The notes under the pieces were generated by a model, which ran no database searches, was not told where the DNA came from, and worked only from the letters and a program-made list of their open reading frames with translations. The translations under genes and the position numbers were made by a program. From positions 1 through 35,200 of the IMG/VR virus record IMGVR_UViG_3300029258_001691: DNA of 35,200 bases; one strand, given 5' to 3'. The stretch comes from a virus. Within the stretch, counting starts at the first letter, position 1, and every line of letters begins with the position of its first letter. Shown piece by piece: positions 3,031-18,932 of this stretch.

Positions 3031-3435
3031 CTATCCTTTCAGGTGCTCGACGATTGCTTCGGCTGCGTCGGCCAGCCTCTCAAGTGCCTGCTGTTTCCGG
3101 TACTCGACGAGAAGACGGATGCCCTCACGGTCGTATGCCCCGGCCATCCTCGTGATGTGAAGCTCAACAGGGTCGTTTCCCTGATAGTCCGCCGGCTCCT
3201 GTGAGGGGAACACCTTGAACCCCCTACACCGCCGGCACATGATCTTGCCCTTCCACGTTTTGCTGAGTGGACGTTGCCCACCGAAATCCGGCTTCTCACA
3301 GGTGCACAGCTCGACATCCGGTTCTTCAACTACAGTTGTCTCGCCGCTTCCTGCGGTCTCCGCTTCCTGCTGTAGTGCATCGACCTGCTGCTCGGTGTCC
3401 TGCTGCTCTTCGCTCTTTGCTTTGCCTCTCGCCAT
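3031..3435 (-). CDS. Zinc-ribbon-like head-module protein
   Basis: The ATG at 3433-3435 is preferred because AAAGGAGAG lies eight bases upstream. The in-frame upstream TTG would put that ribosome site inside the gene. The 134-residue product starts with a Q/E-rich low-complexity stretch. It then has CTCEKPDF and CRRCRGF, which could bind one zinc, followed by a helical charged C-terminus. Proteins like this occur next to phage capsid genes and may help head completion. I cannot name a family. Confidence 0.8.
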   Translation of the reverse strand: MARGKAKSEEQQDTEQQVDALQQEAETAGSGETTVVEEPDVELCTCEKPDFGGQRPLSKTWKGKIMCRRCRGFKVFPSQEPADYQGNDPVELHITRMAGAYDREGIRLLVEYRKQQALERLADAAEAIVEHLKG

Positions 3436-3451
3436 TGTCTCTCTCCTTTGC

Positions 3452-3482
3452 AAAAGGGCGCGGAGCGTAACACCCCGCGCCC
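3452..3482 (-). terminator. Rho-independent terminator behind the capsid gene
   Basis: On the minus strand GGGCGCGG and CCGCGCCC form an eight-base perfect stem around an 11-base loop, followed at once by TTTT. It lies between the major capsid gene (stop at 3516) and the ribosome site of the next gene. A partial terminator here would keep capsid expression higher than that of the connector genes. Confidence 0.7.
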
Positions 3483-3515
3483 CTCCATTATGTCTATGTC
3501 ACGATGTCGCTACGC

Positions 3516-4640
3516 TCAGACGAATGTCGGGTCTGCGTAGGTTGTGTCGCCGGTGTACAGCACTGCGCCGGCATCGCGGTTGTTCACGTGACCACTCAGG
3601 TAACGCCGGTACTGCGCGTTGTGCCCGATGATCGGGTTCTCGTTCGTCGGAGACGCCATGATGAGACCCTTGAACTGCGGGTGCTCACGCCATCCGATGG
3701 GAGCGAACGGGCTGTTGTCACCGAGGTACGCGGTTGCCAGAATGTAGTCGTCGGGAATGTCCGGCGTCTGCATCACAATGGCTTCCTTGAACGTACCCAC
3801 CGCCTGAGCAGTGCGACCGAAATGCTTCTTCGCGTTGATGAGAGCCTGCGCGATTCCGCTCTGCTCGTAGGCAGGGTTCACCGCACCGATGAGAGCAGCA
3901 TAGCCCTCAATCTGGCGGAAACCACTGAGATCCCGAAGGTCGCTCATGGACTCGCCGCCCTGACGCGCCCAGAGTATGATCTGCGCATCGCCCATTCCCT
4001 CATGCTCCAGAATGGTTGTGATGAGCGCCGTCACCTCTGCTGCGGTCGGAGCATCGCCGGTTGACACTGCTGTGTAGTGGTTGTGGTCGCCGTCGAACGT
4101 GATCTGACCGTTCGAACGCGGCGTGTCCTGAGACGCTTCGTCGTTCCAGAAGGCCTTCGGGGTTGCAGCCTTGGCGGTGAGACAGTCGACGGTGCTGTCG
4201 GGAGTGCTCTTGAGCATGCTCTCGAAGAACTGCCGACGAATCTTCGCCTTGTCTGCGCGGAACACCGAGTTCTGATACTCGATGATCTGCTTGCTGGTCA
4301 TCTGGACGATAACCTCCATGGTCATCTTGTTACCCGAACCGAAACGGTGGAGCGGCTGAGGTGTGTTCCAGCTCTCCATGTCCGGCCCCATCGGCGGAAC
4401 CTCATGCTCCGAGATTTCCGCGAATGAGTTGTCGGCGAACAGACGCTTGACGTTTGCCGCCTTGTCTTCGTGTTTGTAAGCGAGCAGCCGTGACAGCACT
4501 TCCACGTCGGCGTTGTATATCGACAAGGCCGGGAACACCTGCTGTTCCAGAAGATCCTTGAGGTACACATCGTCGTCCGTTTTCAGCTGCAGGAACTCGT
4601 TACTGAACACGCCCTGTACGAAATCGTACTTTTCTGCCAT
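3516..4640 (-). CDS. Major capsid protein, HK97-like fold
   Basis: The 374-residue product is the main shell protein. Its length, its position two genes after the scaffold, and its segments fit the phage HK97-fold capsid family. The segments are an N-arm (VFSNEFLQLKTDDDVYLKDLL), a long middle helix around AKIRRQFFESML, and a late domain with LIMASPTNENPIIGHNAQYRRY. No long N-terminal delta domain is seen, which agrees with a separate scaffold gene. The ribosome site is AAAGGACACG. A terminator follows the gene. The capsid subfamily is not clear from the sequence alone. Confidence 0.85.
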   Translation of the reverse strand: MAEKYDFVQGVFSNEFLQLKTDDDVYLKDLLEQQVFPALSIYNADVEVLSRLLAYKHEDKAANVKRLFADNSFAEISEHEVPPMGPDMESWNTPQPLHRFGSGNKMTMEVIVQMTSKQIIEYQNSVFRADKAKIRRQFFESMLKSTPDSTVDCLTAKAATPKAFWNDEASQDTPRSNGQITFDGDHNHYTAVSTGDAPTAAEVTALITTILEHEGMGDAQIILWARQGGESMSDLRDLSGFRQIEGYAALIGAVNPAYEQSGIAQALINAKKHFGRTAQAVGTFKEAIVMQTPDIPDDYILATAYLGDNSPFAPIGWREHPQFKGLIMASPTNENPIIGHNAQYRRYLSGHVNNRDAGAVLYTGDTTYADPTFV

Positions 4641-4905: not shown

Positions 4906-6093
4906 TTACGACGTGGCGATCAGTCCAAGGGCTTCGAGCTCGTCCAGAAGTGTGTTGAACGGAGCCTTCTGGTCGGTTGCGCTTGTGTCGGTCATGTCCG
5001 CGATGTGCGCCTGCTGCACAACTGGAGTCGCACCGAAGAACCCGAGTTTCTGATTAGCCGCAGTGCCAATCATGGAGCCAGTGCTCGTGTTGAGCACGAT
5101 GTCAACGCTGTCTGCCAGTGTCACGAGACCGGAAGCGAAACGAATGACCTCACCCGGCGTAGCCGAACCGTCAGGCGTACACAGGATCACGATACGACCG
5201 GGCATGTCGTTTGTTGCACCCGGCGTCCCGTTCACCTCACCGACGATAGCCGCTGCCGTGTCGAAGGTGGTGCCGTTGCTACCCTTGAAGTTGATGCCCC
5301 CAAGGTCGTCATTGTCCTGCACGATTGCCGCAGCACGCGCCTTTTTGAAGCTGATGGTTGAGTCAACAGCATCTTCTGTGACGCTGGTGATAGCCATGTC
5401 TGCGGCAGTGAACTCAGCAACCGTTGCCACAGCCTCAGCACCGTCAGGGGAAATCTTGACAGATATCTTTCCGGGCATGTCGCCATCACCCGGGGTTCCA
5501 CCGACCTCGGCGAGGATCTGAGCTGCCTCGGCATAGGAATCGCCGTCGTAGCCCTTGAAGCTGATCATACCGAGATCGTCACCGCTCTGCACGACCGCAG
5601 CGGCACGAATCTTCTTCATGGTGAGCACTGCGCTCGTAGCGTCTGCATCGTCCTCGAACATTTCGATGTCGTTGAACGACATGTCTCCGCCAACATCCAT
5701 CCCGCCGGCGTTGGCTCCGCCAATGTCGAAGCGGATGATCGAGGCGCTGCGTGCGAACCCGACAACCTGCTGGATTGTCGCGGTGGGTGCGGTCGTGGTA
5801 GCTTCACCAGCGGTCGCACTGAGGTAGACCTTCGCGCCGACGGTCATACCCGAGTAACCACGGATGTCTGCCACCTTGACCGGGCTCACCATCTGGTACT
5901 GGAGAGCTGTCTGGACGATAACACCCTGCGCATCTTTGCGAGTGGTGTCACCAACTGCGACAGAATCCGCTTTCTGCCACTGCCCGTTGGAATCCATGTA
6001 GACAAGGTCTCCAACAGCCAGCGCGACTCCGGCCTTCCCTGACGGAAGAATATTCGACGCTTCCGTGCTGTATCGGTCGGTGTAGTACGGCAT
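4906..6093 (-). CDS. Capsid decoration protein with fibre-type repeats
   Basis: The 395-residue product has two parts. Residues 1-125 look like a capsid-decoration domain (GVALAVGDLVYMDSNG, then VYLSATAGEATTTAPT, then QVVGFARS). Residues 157-232 and 247-322 are two copies of a repeat common in phage tail and head fibres (KKxRAAAxVQxxDDLG, FKGxxG, GTPGxxxDMPGxI, SPDG or TPDG). The C-terminus has KLGFFGATPVVQQ, a motif also frequent in fibre proteins. The gene lies between scaffold and capsid genes, so the likely role is a fibre-bearing head decoration. The fusion of the two module types is my inference. Confidence 0.75.
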   Translation of the reverse strand: MPYYTDRYSTEASNILPSGKAGVALAVGDLVYMDSNGQWQKADSVAVGDTTRKDAQGVIVQTALQYQMVSPVKVADIRGYSGMTVGAKVYLSATAGEATTTAPTATIQQVVGFARSASIIRFDIGGANAGGMDVGGDMSFNDIEMFEDDADATSAVLTMKKIRAAAVVQSGDDLGMISFKGYDGDSYAEAAQILAEVGGTPGDGDMPGKISVKISPDGAEAVATVAEFTAADMAITSVTEDAVDSTISFKKARAAAIVQDNDDLGGINFKGSNGTTFDTAAAIVGEVNGTPGATNDMPGRIVILCTPDGSATPGEVIRFASGLVTLADSVDIVLNTSTGSMIGTAANQKLGFFGATPVVQQAHIADMTDTSATDQKAPFNTLLDELEALGLIATS

Positions 6094-6126
6094 TGTTGTT
6101 CCCTTTCGTGAATATTGCTACGGCTG

Positions 6127-6882
6127 TTACAGTTCGGAGAAACCAGCTTCGCGCAGCCGCTCGCGAACTTCATCCGGTTTCTCGCTCTTTTTGGGTTTCT
6201 TCCCCGGAGTGCGATTCCGGAACTTGTCTTCGGGGAACTGAGGTTCGTTGTTCCCGCTCTCGCCCGTGAACAGGAAATCGTTGTCCTCCTTGAACCCCTT
6301 GACAAGATCGCTGACATCATCCAGCTCGTATTCGAATGAGTCCTCGTCCTTCCATTCGAACTCGACATCTTCGAGATCGAACAGTTTGAGAGCCTTTTTC
6401 ATCCGAGCGGATCTCTTGCTCTCATCCACACCGTCAAGGATGCCGGCTGCAATAAGCCCGGTTGTGACAGCGTTGCGGATGGCGTTGGTCTTCACCTTTT
6501 CACGAGCGGCGGTGAGGGCCGTTTGTGCCTTCTCCAGTTTGGTGTTGGCGTCGGTGAGCAGTTCCTCCGTCTTGCCGGCTTCCTTCTTCTTCTCGGCTTC
6601 ACGTTTGGTCTGCCCATCCGTGATTTCCTTGAGTTTTCTGCGTGCCTCGTCGCGCTCCTCGCGAGCCTTGTTCCGCTGGCCTGCCAACTTGCTGACCCGC
6701 TTCTTCATGCCGGCGGTGAGGTTGTCGTCGTCGTCCTCGTCCTCGTCCTCCTCGTCGTCACCGGCCCCGGCCTCCTTGGTCGGCAGGATACCCAACGTGA
6801 GGTGCGCAGAAATCTGTTCCTCGCTCAGCTCGATTCCAAGCTCTTTACCCTTCGCTTCAATCTCTTCTCTCTTGACTGCCAT
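6127..6882 (-). CDS. Capsid scaffolding protein
   Basis: The product has 251 residues and a GGAGG ribosome site. It has an acidic run (DDEEDEDEDDDD, about residues 42-53). A long charged coiled coil covers about 57-135, and the C-terminal segment is basic (KKPKKSEKPDEVRERLREAG). This architecture matches phage scaffold proteins, which line the procapsid and bind capsid subunits through a basic C-terminal helix-turn-helix. Its position between the minor head gene and the capsid gene is the standard one. There is no sign of a protease domain. Confidence 0.8.
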   Translation of the reverse strand: MAVKREEIEAKGKELGIELSEEQISAHLTLGILPTKEAGAGDDEEDEDEDDDDNLTAGMKKRVSKLAGQRNKAREERDEARRKLKEITDGQTKREAEKKKEAGKTEELLTDANTKLEKAQTALTAAREKVKTNAIRNAVTTGLIAAGILDGVDESKRSARMKKALKLFDLEDVEFEWKDEDSFEYELDDVSDLVKGFKEDNDFLFTGESGNNEPQFPEDKFRNRTPGKKPKKSEKPDEVRERLREAGFSEL

Positions 6883-6897
6883 TCTGTTCCTCCGTTG

Positions 6898-7050
6898 TTA
6901 CGGGCACGACCCGGTTGCGTTCTGAGGCTCTGAGTCCTCGATGGTTTCTGGAGCGTATACCTCGACTCCGTTTATGAATAGTCTCGGCTCGGGTTCAGTT
7001 TGGATGAGCCCTGCCGGGTGCTCAATCGTCGTTAGTATTGGGTATTCCAA
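6898..7050 (-). CDS. Possible 50-residue protein with TTG start
   Basis: A short frame begins at TTG (7048-7050) with a perfect GGAGG six bases upstream and runs to TAA at 6898. It overlaps the end of the previous gene by 29 bases. The product has a protein-like middle (EPRLFINGVEVYAPE) and fills an otherwise empty gap before the scaffold gene. The TTG start and short length keep this tentative. Confidence 0.45.
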   Translation of the reverse strand: MEYPILTTIEHPAGLIQTEPEPRLFINGVEVYAPETIEDSEPQNATGSCP

Positions 7051-7243
7051 CGACGTCCTCCGGTGTCACTTCTTCCCTCTGGATCCAACGCCGACTGACA
7101 CGAGACACCTTCACGCCTTTGGGGCCGATGTCGAATTCGTACTTCCCCGGTGCAAGGTTCTGCAGGATGATGGTTGCCTGTGATACGGTGAACTCATCCT
7201 GTGAGAATGCCCCGAGCTTCTTGCCTCCTACTCCTCCTGCCAT
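7022..7243 (-). CDS. Small hypothetical head-module protein
   Basis: The ATG at 7241-7243 has AAGGAGACC upstream and is chosen over an upstream in-frame start. The 73-residue product begins with a glycine-rich stretch (AGGVGGKKLGAF). It continues with alternating strands (ATIILQNLAPGKYEFDIG) and ends acidic. It lies between the minor head gene and the scaffold gene. I do not recognise a family. Confidence 0.75.
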   Translation of the reverse strand: MAGGVGGKKLGAFSQDEFTVSQATIILQNLAPGKYEFDIGPKGVKVSRVSRRWIQREEVTPEDVVGIPNTNDD

Positions 7244-16046: not shown

Positions 16047-16788
16047 CCTCAGCCTCCGATTCTGCATCCTGAGCTGCGTAGTGCGCGGTGACTATCTCGC
16101 ACATCCGTAGCAGAATGCTATTGACGTTTCGTATCCCGCCCTTGGTGCTGGTGAGGCGCATGGCCTTGATGAACGGCTCGAATGCTTCGATGGACGCGAG
16201 ACAGTTCTTCTCGGCTTCCATGAACTCGAACGTCCGCTCTACCTTGTCCATGTTCGCGGGGAGGAACACAAACTGCATCACCTTGAAGTCATACTGCAGG
16301 TTGATGTGGTCGAGCTTGGCGCTTTCCAGTGAGGTGTATACCCCGAGGCTCTCCGGGTCGATTCCGGTCTCCGCCTGCAGCTTGAGGTTGTCGATTTCCT
16401 CGAACAGCTCCCGGAGCAGATTCTTGTCGTCCTCTCCGCGTATGGCGTTGTGGGCGAGCTGCTTGGTGACTACCTGAGCCTTGGTCAGCTGATTGGTCTC
16501 TACCAGCGCGAAGATATGAGTCTTGTCTGCCATCCGTGACGCTCTGACCCGGTGATGGCCGCTGATGATTTCGAGCTGTTCCTTCTTGGCGTTGAACATG
16601 CAGAAGGGCAGCTGCTCCAGCCGGCCGTCGCGCTTGATGGTCTTCATGAGCAGATCGAAATGCTTCTTGCTCATGACGTTGGCGTTGCGATCCTGCTCGC
16701 GCAGGCTGTCGATATTGACCCGCCACAACTCGAGTCCGTTCTCCAGTTCTGCTACCTTCTCATAGTCCTTCTCACTTGGCTTCGCCAC
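16027..16788 (-). CDS. ParB/Srx-like protein
   Basis: A GTG at 16786-16788 follows TGGAGG and overlaps the previous gene by 17 bases. Residues 20-100 form a ParB N-terminal-like domain: a strand with WRVNIDSLR, then NANVMS, a helix, then LEIISGHHRVRASR (motif at 76-83). This fold includes partition CTPases, nucleases and phosphotransferases. The C-terminal 150 residues are helical and acidic, unlike a standard HTH ParB. Phage ParB-like proteins often sit beside DNA-modifying enzymes, as here. Whether it cuts DNA, hydrolyses nucleotide or activates a base is unknown. Confidence 0.8.
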   Translation of the reverse strand: MAKPSEKDYEKVAELENGLELWRVNIDSLREQDRNANVMSKKHFDLLMKTIKRDGRLEQLPFCMFNAKKEQLEIISGHHRVRASRMADKTHIFALVETNQLTKAQVVTKQLAHNAIRGEDDKNLLRELFEEIDNLKLQAETGIDPESLGVYTSLESAKLDHINLQYDFKVMQFVFLPANMDKVERTFEFMEAEKNCLASIEAFEPFIKAMRLTSTKGGIRNVNSILLRMCEIVTAHYAAQDAESEAEDASGTD

Positions 16789-18193
16789 TCTTGGCCTCCA
16801 CTTCGGCTATGTACTCCTTCACGCAGTCAGAGTACGTTTTGTCGCGGAACGGAGCTTCGTACATGAGACGATACATGCCGTTGGGAAGCCGCTCTCGCAG
16901 GGTGATGTCGAGTATCCCGGTGTTCAGACGTACCTTCCGGTATAGGCTGAGACACGCGGTCTTGAGTCCGTTGAGCTGGTAGAGCTTGTTCTTGCGCATT
17001 TGCGGGAGCGCCATGAGCCGATCCTTCGTCTCCTTGGTGCAAAGGCAGTTCATGAGCAGCCGCACGAGGTTGGTGTATTTGGGGTGCCAGACACCGAAAC
17101 CGAAGTTCTCGAATATCATGTCGGTCTTGAGCAAGAACAGATCCATAAGGTGAAATCCGCAGGTGGCGAACAGCTTACCGTCGATGAACCACAGCGTATA
17201 CAGCTCGGCGTTCGTGTTCCCGAGACGGTGCGCCCACAGGGAGCGGTAGTAATGAGCGTGCTCCGCCTTGGTGTGAATCCATGTCACTTCGCTGTCCGGT
17301 CGAATCACGTCGCTCTTGCTGAAAATCGGCACATCCAACGGCTTCATTTCCAGCTCCTTACGCGATATGATGCGCTTGAGCCGCTTGGGAATTTCCGCCG
17401 GCCGGTTGCAGATGATGTGCTCGTGCTTCTCGACGGACTTCTCGATGAGACACACTACGGATTTCGTCATGTGGGGCTTGGGTTCGGCTACCAGATACCA
17501 GAGGTGAAGCGGGGCGCTTCCGCGAAACTGCGATTGTAGCAGCGAATCGTATTCGGCTTTCCAGTTGAACTCCTCGACTTGAGCCGACGCCCACGGTATC
17601 ACGTCGCGGAACGAGAACATTTTCTGGTAGCCCTTCGAGTACACCGGGGGATTGAAATACACGGCGGCTTCCGGGTCTTCGTGGCAGCGGTACAGCTCGT
17701 CGCGGAGATCGGCAACCTTGTATCTCATGGTCTTCAATTCCTTGCGGAGAGCCTCGATGCGTGCCGTGATACTCCTCTTGTACTTCCGTGGTTGTTCCAG
17801 TAGGGCGTTGATGTAGTCGGCCTCATACTGCATGTCTTCGCGCAGCTGCAGAGCTTTCATGAGAATGAACAGCTCCTCGATGCCGCGCACCTTCGTCTTT
17901 TTGCAAATCCGATCCCAATACTCGTGCTCGATGGTGAGCCCGAGGCTGTCCAGCGGTTCGCCTTTGATGGCTGCAACGAGCGCGGTGGTGTAGGTGCTGA
18001 CGTCACTCGCGTAGATATTGCCGGCCGGCCATCCGGCCTTCACTGCTATCTGTGGGATCGTGAGATTGCCGACGCACGGTACGATGAGACGCTTATACTT
18101 GCCGGTCTCTCTGAGGTGCTTGAATGTGGCGAGAAGGAAGGGCCGGAATGGCGCGGGGGTCGCCCCGAGGAAGATTGTCGATAGACCTTGCAT
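16772..18193 (-). CDS. Rossmann/NPP protein with Mom-like C-terminal half (DNA-modification candidate)
   Basis: The product has 473 residues and an AGGAGC ribosome site. The N-terminal 200 residues look like a methyltransferase-type Rossmann fold: a strand with RLIVPCVGN, an acidic YASDVS (Asp 64), and AAVYFNPPVYSKG. The NPPVY at 181-185 resembles motif IV of DNA methylases. Residues about 310-400 recall the Mu Mom acyltransferase: a HAHYY motif, then LYTLWFIDGKL, then a TNLVRLL helix. The reading is a two-domain base-modifying enzyme, coupled to the ParB-like gene by a 17-base overlap. This is a family-level hunch and not a match I could confirm. Confidence 0.6.
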   Translation of the reverse strand: MQGLSTIFLGATPAPFRPFLLATFKHLRETGKYKRLIVPCVGNLTIPQIAVKAGWPAGNIYASDVSTYTTALVAAIKGEPLDSLGLTIEHEYWDRICKKTKVRGIEELFILMKALQLREDMQYEADYINALLEQPRKYKRSITARIEALRKELKTMRYKVADLRDELYRCHEDPEAAVYFNPPVYSKGYQKMFSFRDVIPWASAQVEEFNWKAEYDSLLQSQFRGSAPLHLWYLVAEPKPHMTKSVVCLIEKSVEKHEHIICNRPAEIPKRLKRIISRKELEMKPLDVPIFSKSDVIRPDSEVTWIHTKAEHAHYYRSLWAHRLGNTNAELYTLWFIDGKLFATCGFHLMDLFLLKTDMIFENFGFGVWHPKYTNLVRLLMNCLCTKETKDRLMALPQMRKNKLYQLNGLKTACLSLYRKVRLNTGILDITLRERLPNGMYRLMYEAPFRDKTYSDCVKEYIAEVEAKSGEAK

Positions 18194-18206: not shown

Positions 18207-18242
18207 GAAAAAGAGAAAGCCGCTGGCAGGATGCCAACGGCT
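18207..18242 (-). terminator. Rho-independent terminator after the tRNA
   Basis: On the minus strand AGCCGTTGGCA and TGCCAGCGGCT form an 11-base stem with one G-U pair and a three-base loop. TTCTCTTTTTC follows at once. It lies between the tRNA and the ribosome site of the Mom-like gene and should end most transcripts coming from the block to the right. No separate promoter for the downstream module was identified, so read-through or antitermination may be involved. Confidence 0.8.
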
Positions 18243-18248
18243 CTGATA

Positions 18249-18338
18249 TGGGTGCCGGGAAGGGAGTCGAACCCAAGTCTCCGCGCTGAGAACGCGGTAT
18301 CCTATGTCCCCGAGGGGACGCCACTAGACGACCCGGCA
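18249..18338 (-). tRNA. tRNA-Glu (CTC) with a 14-nt hairpin inserted in the D-loop
   Basis: The 90-base gene shows a perfect seven-base acceptor stem (TGCCGGG with CCCGGCA), an encoded CCA end, an anticodon stem CCGCG/CGCGG with loop TTCTCAG (anticodon CTC), and a T-loop TTCGACT. The D-stem is GTCT with GGAT. The D-loop is 23 bases and not about 9, because GTCCCCTCGGGGAC (18306-18319) sits after the invariant GG. This insert can form its own stem. The T-stem has only three GC pairs plus two U-U mismatches. It may be an unusual functional tRNA or a decaying one. Confidence 0.7.
18306..18319 (-). repeat. Palindromic insert within the tRNA D-loop
   Basis: The 14 bases GTCCCCTCGGGGAC read the same on both strands except for the central two bases. 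Removing them leaves a 76-base tRNA of normal length with a nine-base D-loop. This agrees with insertion of a small palindrome into a standard tRNA-Glu. Confidence 0.7.
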
Positions 18339-18341
18339 GCG

Positions 18342-18932
18342 TTACGCGAATTTTCTTTCTACCAGCTCAACATACCTCATGTGGCGTTCGGGTGCAATGG
18401 CTCCTGCTGTGAGGGCCTCCCGAATCTGCCGTATGATGGACATGATCTCACCTCGCGGGGCGAAGATGGAATGTATAGGGTGCTCAAGCAATCGCTCGTA
18501 GCAACGCTGGAGCTTGTCTTGCGGAGACGCAAACTCTTGGGGTTTGGAGTAGGTCACCGGAGCTGCCTTGCTGGCACGCTTGGTGCGGGGACGGCCCTTG
18601 TCGAGTTCGGTGCAGTCGAATCCTGCATCGCGCAGCCACTCGGCGACGTAGTGCCGATGGCAGGGTTTTCCTGCGCCCTCGAAGCAAAGCATGATCACGC
18701 CCGGCCCCAACTCGGAAACCACGACCGTCGGATCCAGCTTGTCGAGAACCTGCTCCACGTATGCCTGCTTCCAGCCCTCGGTGGTGAGTTCGTTCTTCCT
18801 GCCTTGTCGCAGCAACTCGCTCGACGGCGCCAGCTTCTTGTAGACCTGACCCTTGAACCAGTGTGGGGGACGCCGGCAAATCGCTACCGCGTTCGGGTCC
18901 CCTCCGTGCTTGGCGAAATTGCTCGTGTTCAT
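18342..18932 (-). CDS. DUF488-like protein
   Basis: The 196-residue product starts at an ATG that overlaps the previous stop as ATGA. The N-terminus (TSNFAKHGGDPNAVAICRRPP) and the middle segment LCFEGAGKPCHRHYVAEWL are typical of the DUF488 family, in which the conserved CHR follows an acidic strand. The biochemical role of DUF488 is not established. The extra C-terminal 70 residues are helical, with a tandem pair of short helices (KLQRCYERLLEH and IIRQIREALTAG). It is the last protein gene before the tRNA. Confidence 0.75.
   Translation of the reverse strand: MNTSNFAKHGGDPNAVAICRRPPHWFKGQVYKKLAPSSELLRQGRKNELTTEGWKQAYVEQVLDKLDPTVVVSELGPGVIMLCFEGAGKPCHRHYVAEWLRDAGFDCTELDKGRPRTKRASKAAPVTYSKPQEFASPQDKLQRCYERLLEHPIHSIFAPRGEIMSIIRQIREALTAGAIAPERHMRYVELVERKFA

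Follow-up and report, generated by a model that had tools for sequence, protein, structure and literature searches.

Genomic context of the tRNA-Glu gene

The window, which is the whole 35,200-nt stretch of DNA analysed here, is an IMG/VR virus record in which the recognisable phage genes (head, portal, terminase, RecT-like annealing protein, exonuclease and helicase) all lie on the minus strand. A 90-nt tRNA-Glu(CUC) gene occupies positions 18249–18338 of this strand. Immediately upstream is a gene of the DUF488-N3a family (18342–18932, minus strand), whose stop codon falls 3 nt before the tRNA, making it probable that the two share one transcript. A strong predicted intrinsic terminator (18216–18244, minus strand), with a 13-pair stem, a 3-nt loop and a T-rich tail, follows 4 nt after the tRNA and, taken together with the position of the DUF488 stop codon, indicates that the tRNA most likely ends a transcript. 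Downstream, past the terminator, lies a gene combining phage DAM-like and phage GNAT-like domains (16772–18193, minus strand), perhaps encoding a DNA-modification enzyme, while a Lar-like restriction-alleviation protein is encoded farther along the window; the presence of these two proteins suggests a virus that counters host defences. The terminase is nearest to those of phages of Thermobifida and Streptomyces (26–35% identity), a similarity that would be compatible with a high-GC Gram-positive host.

Protein searches for viral relatives recovered a single contig, IMGVR_UViG_3300017987_000237, which is identical over 4 kb and possibly derives from the same virus population, and no diverged relative. 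An assembly or sequencing error is unlikely given this second identical record, though the two may sample one population. A pattern search for tRNA-Glu in IMG/VR found, within the limits of that pattern, no other tRNA-Glu with a D-loop insert of at least about 8 nt, and three of its matches (L003–L005) were normal tRNA-Glu genes.

Structure of the tRNA and its D-loop insert

Numbered from U1 (18338) to A76 (18249), the minus strand reads TGCCGGG-TC-GTCT-AGTGGC-GTCCCCTCGGGGAC-ATA-GGAT-A-CCGCG-TTCTCAG-CGCGG-AGAC-TTGGG-TTCGACT-CCCTT-CCCGGCA-C-CCA. The Rfam tRNA model RF00005 matched this sequence end to end at 36.2 bits (cut-off 29; E = 2.9e-6 in a 301-base stretch), aligning the insert as unmodelled D-loop bases and flagging two mispaired positions in the T-stem. 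The acceptor stem is paired at 7/7 positions, beginning with U1-A72 (18338/18253), and is followed by C73 as discriminator (18252) and an encoded CCA (18251–18249). The anticodon CUC (18288–18290, minus strand), assigned by both the Rfam alignment and ARAGORN, sits in the loop UUCUCAG, which is closed by a 5-bp stem free of mismatches (CCGCG/CGCGG), and the D- and T-loop consensus bases are all present. Rfam, the predicted fold and ARAGORN agree on the T-arm, UUGGG-UUCGACU-CCCUU (18260–18276, minus strand), where three G-C pairs (G51-C63, G52-C62 and G53-C61) are joined by two adjacent mismatches, U49.U65 and U50.U64, so that the T-stem falls short of five pairs. The minimum free energy fold contained the acceptor stem, a hairpin formed by the insert, the anticodon stem and the 3-bp T-stem, with a modest z-score for the whole RNA of −1.9.

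The insert, GTCCCCTCGGGGAC (18306–18319, minus strand), is a 14-nt palindrome placed after G18, G19 and C20, and folds into a 5-bp stem with a CUCG loop or, alternatively, 6 bp with a UC loop. The 18-nt D-loop stretch has a folding energy of −8.1 kcal/mol against a shuffle mean of −2.2 (p = 0.003); a chance palindrome was rejected on this result and on the membership of the insert in the wider class described below. A dispersed repeat was likewise rejected, as no further copy of the palindrome occurs in the 35,200-nt window. D-loop positions 20a and 20b, on the outer elbow, are the normal site of length variation in tRNAs, and a hairpin placed there can therefore spare the G18-U55 and G19-C56 contacts while adding a knob to the molecule.

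The locus almost certainly holds a genuine tRNA gene bearing a D-loop hairpin. The earlier note had described a tRNA-Glu with acceptor, anticodon and T-loop positions in place, an encoded CCA, only three GC pairs in the T-stem and an insert that follows the D-loop GG, forms its own stem and leaves exactly 76 bases on removal; its sequence, coordinates and each of these readings hold, the tRNA lying on the minus strand. In the relaxed ARAGORN search that it proposed, with a lowered score threshold, the intact gene gave nothing except a spurious tRNA-Pro(ggg). The gene with GTCCCCTCGGGGAC deleted was called as a tRNA-Glu(ctc) of 76 bases. At default settings ARAGORN called no tRNA in the whole window, and the tRNA was also absent from a fast, gathering-mode Rfam scan of the window. 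Given this blind spot of ARAGORN, some tRNAs with D-loop hairpins are probably missing from phage annotations.

The regular 76-nt tRNA that remains upon removal of the 14 nt could also be taken to mean that these are spliced out as an intron, and in phage phiEcoM-GJ1 a tRNA-Arg whose D-arm carries an insert is annotated in GenBank as one that 'may contain an intron'. However, in the minimum free energy fold the insert pairs only with itself and its ends lie directly opposite each other, leaving neither a bulge-helix-bulge nor an exon-intron helix, and 14 nt is far below the size of group I or II introns. Archaeal tRNA introns are marked by a bulge-helix-bulge with exon pairing, and an intron of this type was rejected because no such structure occurs at the borders. 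Bacteria are not known to have such a tRNA splicing endonuclease, and none was found among the proteins tested. Splicing is thus scarcely credible as an explanation of the insert.

D-loop inserts in bacterial tRNAs

The tRNA-Glu pattern gave 41 matches in approximately 85,000 species genomes, two of which (L026 and L028) contain N, and nearly all were chance occurrences of TCTARNGG upstream of a normal tRNA-Glu. Inserts were found in three cases (L019, L043 and L020), and only L019 carries a hairpin. In this contig, positions 3117–3986 and 5360–7102 hold a Lachnospiraceae tRNA array (Lys, Glu, Glu, His, Tyr, Ser) and, a little over 1 kb past it, genes for a release-factor-domain protein and an RtcB ligase. 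The D-loop sequence AAGGAACTTTAGTTCCTT is present in two tRNA-Glu genes of the array. In related arrays (L053, L056) these tRNAs recur, the D-loop hairpin being present in some copies and absent from others. Three of the four Lachnospiraceae hairpin tRNA-Glu copies have one extra base 5' of the anticodon stem, and these may therefore be altered in function.

The remaining inserts are of other kinds. A Nocardioidaceae tRNA-Glu (L043, 6785–6859) has eight extra, unstructured D-loop bases and adjoins a normal copy, while a Pseudomonas tRNA-Glu (L020, 277–360) is a partial tandem duplication in which the anticodon arm is doubled. In addition, a Bacteroidota genome encodes a tRNA-Thr(CGT) with a long D-loop hairpin insert of 11 bp (L157, G769:C87:34249-34335), and in L067 (6423–6525) a large internal insert occurs in a phage tRNA.

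Hairpin inserts recur in phage tRNAs

A generic D-loop-insert pattern for isoacceptors other than Glu, first tried on known tRNAs, matched 89 IMG/VR contigs; the listing covered 80 of these. Among these listed matches, and after exclusion of tandem tRNAs and gaps, approximately 26 distinct phage tRNAs had an intact acceptor stem and a D-loop insert, with tRNA-Lys(UUU) accounting for 12–13 of them. The same pattern was matched in 1 of 1191 bacterial genomes of three phyla, the phage figure being a count of matches and not a rate. A BLAST search of named phages with two hairpin tRNA-Lys sequences returned only match lengths that fit normal tRNA-Lys.

As a class, the D-loop inserts of phage tRNAs are hairpins. 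In a set of 31 inserts, which includes the window, L019, L043, L157 and one repeated sequence, the summed folding energy (repeat omitted) was −87 kcal/mol versus a shuffle mean of −29 and a best shuffle of −53. Hairpins capped by a GNRA loop made up 15 of the 31; the expected number was 0.65, and none of 500 shuffles gave more than 3. For example, the tRNA-Lys inserts include GGA-GAAA-UCC, GGC-GAAA-GCC, GUC-GAAA-GAC, CC-GCAA-GG and GC-GUAA-GC, in which the letters of the stem differ while the hairpin and the type of cap are retained. Of 31 insert tRNAs, 12 were Lys(UUU), compared with 4/39 tRNA-Lys among the normal tRNAs found by the same pattern on the same contigs (Fisher p = 0.009, from few and partly related phages); anticodon parsing was one base off in L111, L115, L129 and L139, and L111, tallied as Phe in this comparison, reads as His. 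Normal and hairpin-bearing tRNA-Lys(UUU) genes occur together in three phages.

The insert in the window is likewise structured and directly follows G18-G19 in an otherwise regular tRNA, though its CUCG loop is without the GNRA cap that is the commonest form in the class. The window tRNA is one case of a recurrent and apparently undescribed type of phage tRNA, and a search of open-access papers found no description of the class. The earlier note knew of no phage tRNAs with such an insertion, a statement overtaken both by the IMG/VR examples and by a 95-nt tRNA-Arg in GenBank. T-stems are intact in 20/23 of the D-loop-insert tRNAs versus 37/41 normal ones, and their other stems are also intact; the class as a whole thus does not consist of pseudogenes.

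Aminoacylation and possible decay of the window copy

The E. coli glutamyl-tRNA synthetase (GluRS) reads the anticodon bases, A37, the U11-A24 pair, the triple formed by U13-G22 and A46, and the lack of base 47 (PMC9976931). Measured against this list, the window tRNA keeps U11-A24, C9 with C12-G23, U13-G22 with A46, the missing base 47, and U35, C36 and A37, while its wobble base C34 departs from the list and fits a tRNA reading GAG. It has U1-A72 in place of G1-C72, a weak determinant in E. coli tRNA-Glu, and U1-A72 characterises tRNA-Gln where the host relies on the amidotransferase (PMC9976931). In many bacteria this pair marks a tRNA-Gln as an amidotransferase substrate, so the window tRNA, once charged, might be misamidated.

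With its GluRS determinants preserved beyond the acceptor stem, but with U1-A72, C73 and T-stem mismatches that a tRNA-Glu would not be expected to carry, the RNA is a plausible GluRS substrate whose performance in translation may be poor. Judged from the sequence, the gene would probably yield a stable RNA, and the chance that this RNA can be charged is about even.

The same oddities may instead reflect decay, in which case the hairpin and the T-stem mismatches would both be damage and a working tRNA would no longer be made. The two adjacent U.U mismatches, U1-A72 and C73 are consistent with such a pseudogene, as are the failure of ARAGORN at default settings and an Rfam score of 36.2 bits, well under the 48–67 bits of most tRNAs in L019, L020 and L043. 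Against this, all pairs of the acceptor and anticodon stems, the D- and T-loop consensus, the CCA and the GluRS determinants are intact, the insert is a perfect palindrome and not random sequence, and the T-stems of most other D-loop-insert tRNAs are undamaged. Decay is rather unlikely for the window copy.

A possible role in evading tRNA-targeting defences

Why phages carry tRNAs is an old question, and recent work points to defences that target tRNA. The reading we tentatively favour, though somewhat short of an even chance, is that the window encodes a variant phage tRNA whose elbow hairpin is retained against a tRNA-cutting defence. The tRNA would be transcribed with the DUF488 gene and then processed, and would still be chargeable with the hairpin in place, as the features that GluRS reads beyond the acceptor stem are preserved. 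Host nucleases or quality-control factors that read the body of the tRNA would recognise it less well with a hairpin projecting from the elbow. While the host destroys its own tRNA, the phage would then still have a tRNA that resists cleavage or keeps the nuclease busy. The Lys(UUU) bias, the doubled tRNA-Lys genes, the neighbouring DNA-modification-like and restriction-alleviation genes and the similar tRNA-Glu hairpin of a bacterial array near RtcB are all in keeping with a link to defence, and a D-loop knob that blocks or holds a nuclease fits both the bias and the doubled genes. The earlier note had likewise raised a decoy or a variant tRNA that avoids tRNA-cleaving defences, and the bias and the doubled genes are compatible with that idea. 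By analogy, a function in conflict over tRNA is conceivable, if somewhat doubtful.

An ordinary supplementary tRNA-Glu reading GAG, with a harmless hairpin at a point tolerant of length, is a rival reading of somewhat lower probability. GAG makes up 62% of the Glu codons, D-loop length varies naturally at the insertion point, and the Lachnospiraceae arrays hold the same tRNA with and without the hairpin; compact hairpins would persist because unstructured inserts would cause misfolding. Such tolerance leaves unexplained, however, the excess of Lys(UUU) and GNRA loops among phage D-loop inserts and the rewriting of stems that preserves the hairpin. For the window's own copy, tolerated insertion and decay are serious rivals to a role against tRNA-cutting defences.

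More speculatively, and again by analogy, D-loop-hairpin tRNAs may be a convergent phage counter-defence in which an elbow knob, often GNRA-capped, protects tRNA-Lys, tRNA-Glu and some other isoacceptors from host nucleases that recognise the tRNA body, or turns them into inhibitors of these nucleases; we consider this broader proposal improbable as it stands. If true, phages and the mobile tRNA arrays beside RtcB repair genes would share one device. The hairpin behind G18-G19, with its enrichment in tRNA-Lys, would offer a searchable mark for tRNAs that are likely specialised, so that the idea could be tested isoacceptor by isoacceptor.

Comparison with known systems

The window tRNA shares with bacterial tRNA-Glu (RF00005) the cloverleaf, the CUC anticodon, the determinants of the augmented D-helix, the missing base 47 and the CCA, and differs from it in the 14-nt D-loop hairpin, the three-pair T-stem, U1-A72 and C73. 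The Lachnospiraceae tRNA-Glu genes near RtcB (L019, L053 and L056) carry a hairpin where the window tRNA has its D-loop insert, but its sequence is unrelated and the genes lie in an array on bacterial contigs. Non-standard arm lengths that remain functional are also known from tRNA-Sec, allo-tRNA and tRNA-Pyl; in the passages of PMC7609411 on non-canonical tRNAs, the only hairpin mentioned is SECIS, and neither phages nor D-loop hairpins appear.

Defence-evading phage tRNAs are discussed in passages of PMC10264068 and PMC11555353. Phage tRNA-Lys is reported there to rescue phage from PrrC, one target of which is tRNA-Lys(UUU), and phage tRNA-Tyr from retron-Eco7 (PMC11555353), while escape through the anticodon loop has been proposed for phage tRNAs (PMC10264068). 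The window tRNA is also a phage tRNA gene, and belongs to a hairpin type that is richest in tRNA-Lys(UUU), a PrrC target. The published examples in those passages, however, rely on anticodon-loop changes or high expression, and the passages on phage tRNAs and defence mention neither the D-loop nor the D-arm. A precedent for steric exclusion by the D-loop comes from the report that an extended D-loop excludes the ribosome-bound factor CNOT3 (PMC11583848).

The 95-nt tRNA-Arg of the Chaseviridae phages phiEcoM-GJ1 and ST32, described as 'without an intron' (PMC6266442), is conserved in 36 records, and its carriers are cultured E. coli phages. Among close relatives (L158–L167, e.g. EF460875.1 14456–14550) a shared backbone carries the anticodon TCG, AAG or TAG. 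This variation, as if decoding were beside the point, agrees with a further reading of the window tRNA, also consistent with its weak T-stem and strong hairpin, in which the tRNA-like fold acts as a decoy or regulator, or binds a protein, and does not carry an amino acid. The window tRNA keeps its anticodon loop and GluRS determinants, however, and such a non-translational role is very improbable for it. Like the window tRNA, the Chaseviridae tRNA-Arg is a phage tRNA with extra D-arm nucleotides (approximately 20), but it is a different isoacceptor and its insert resembles a partial duplication of the D-arm and not one clean hairpin. It is the nearest precedent for the tRNA described here.
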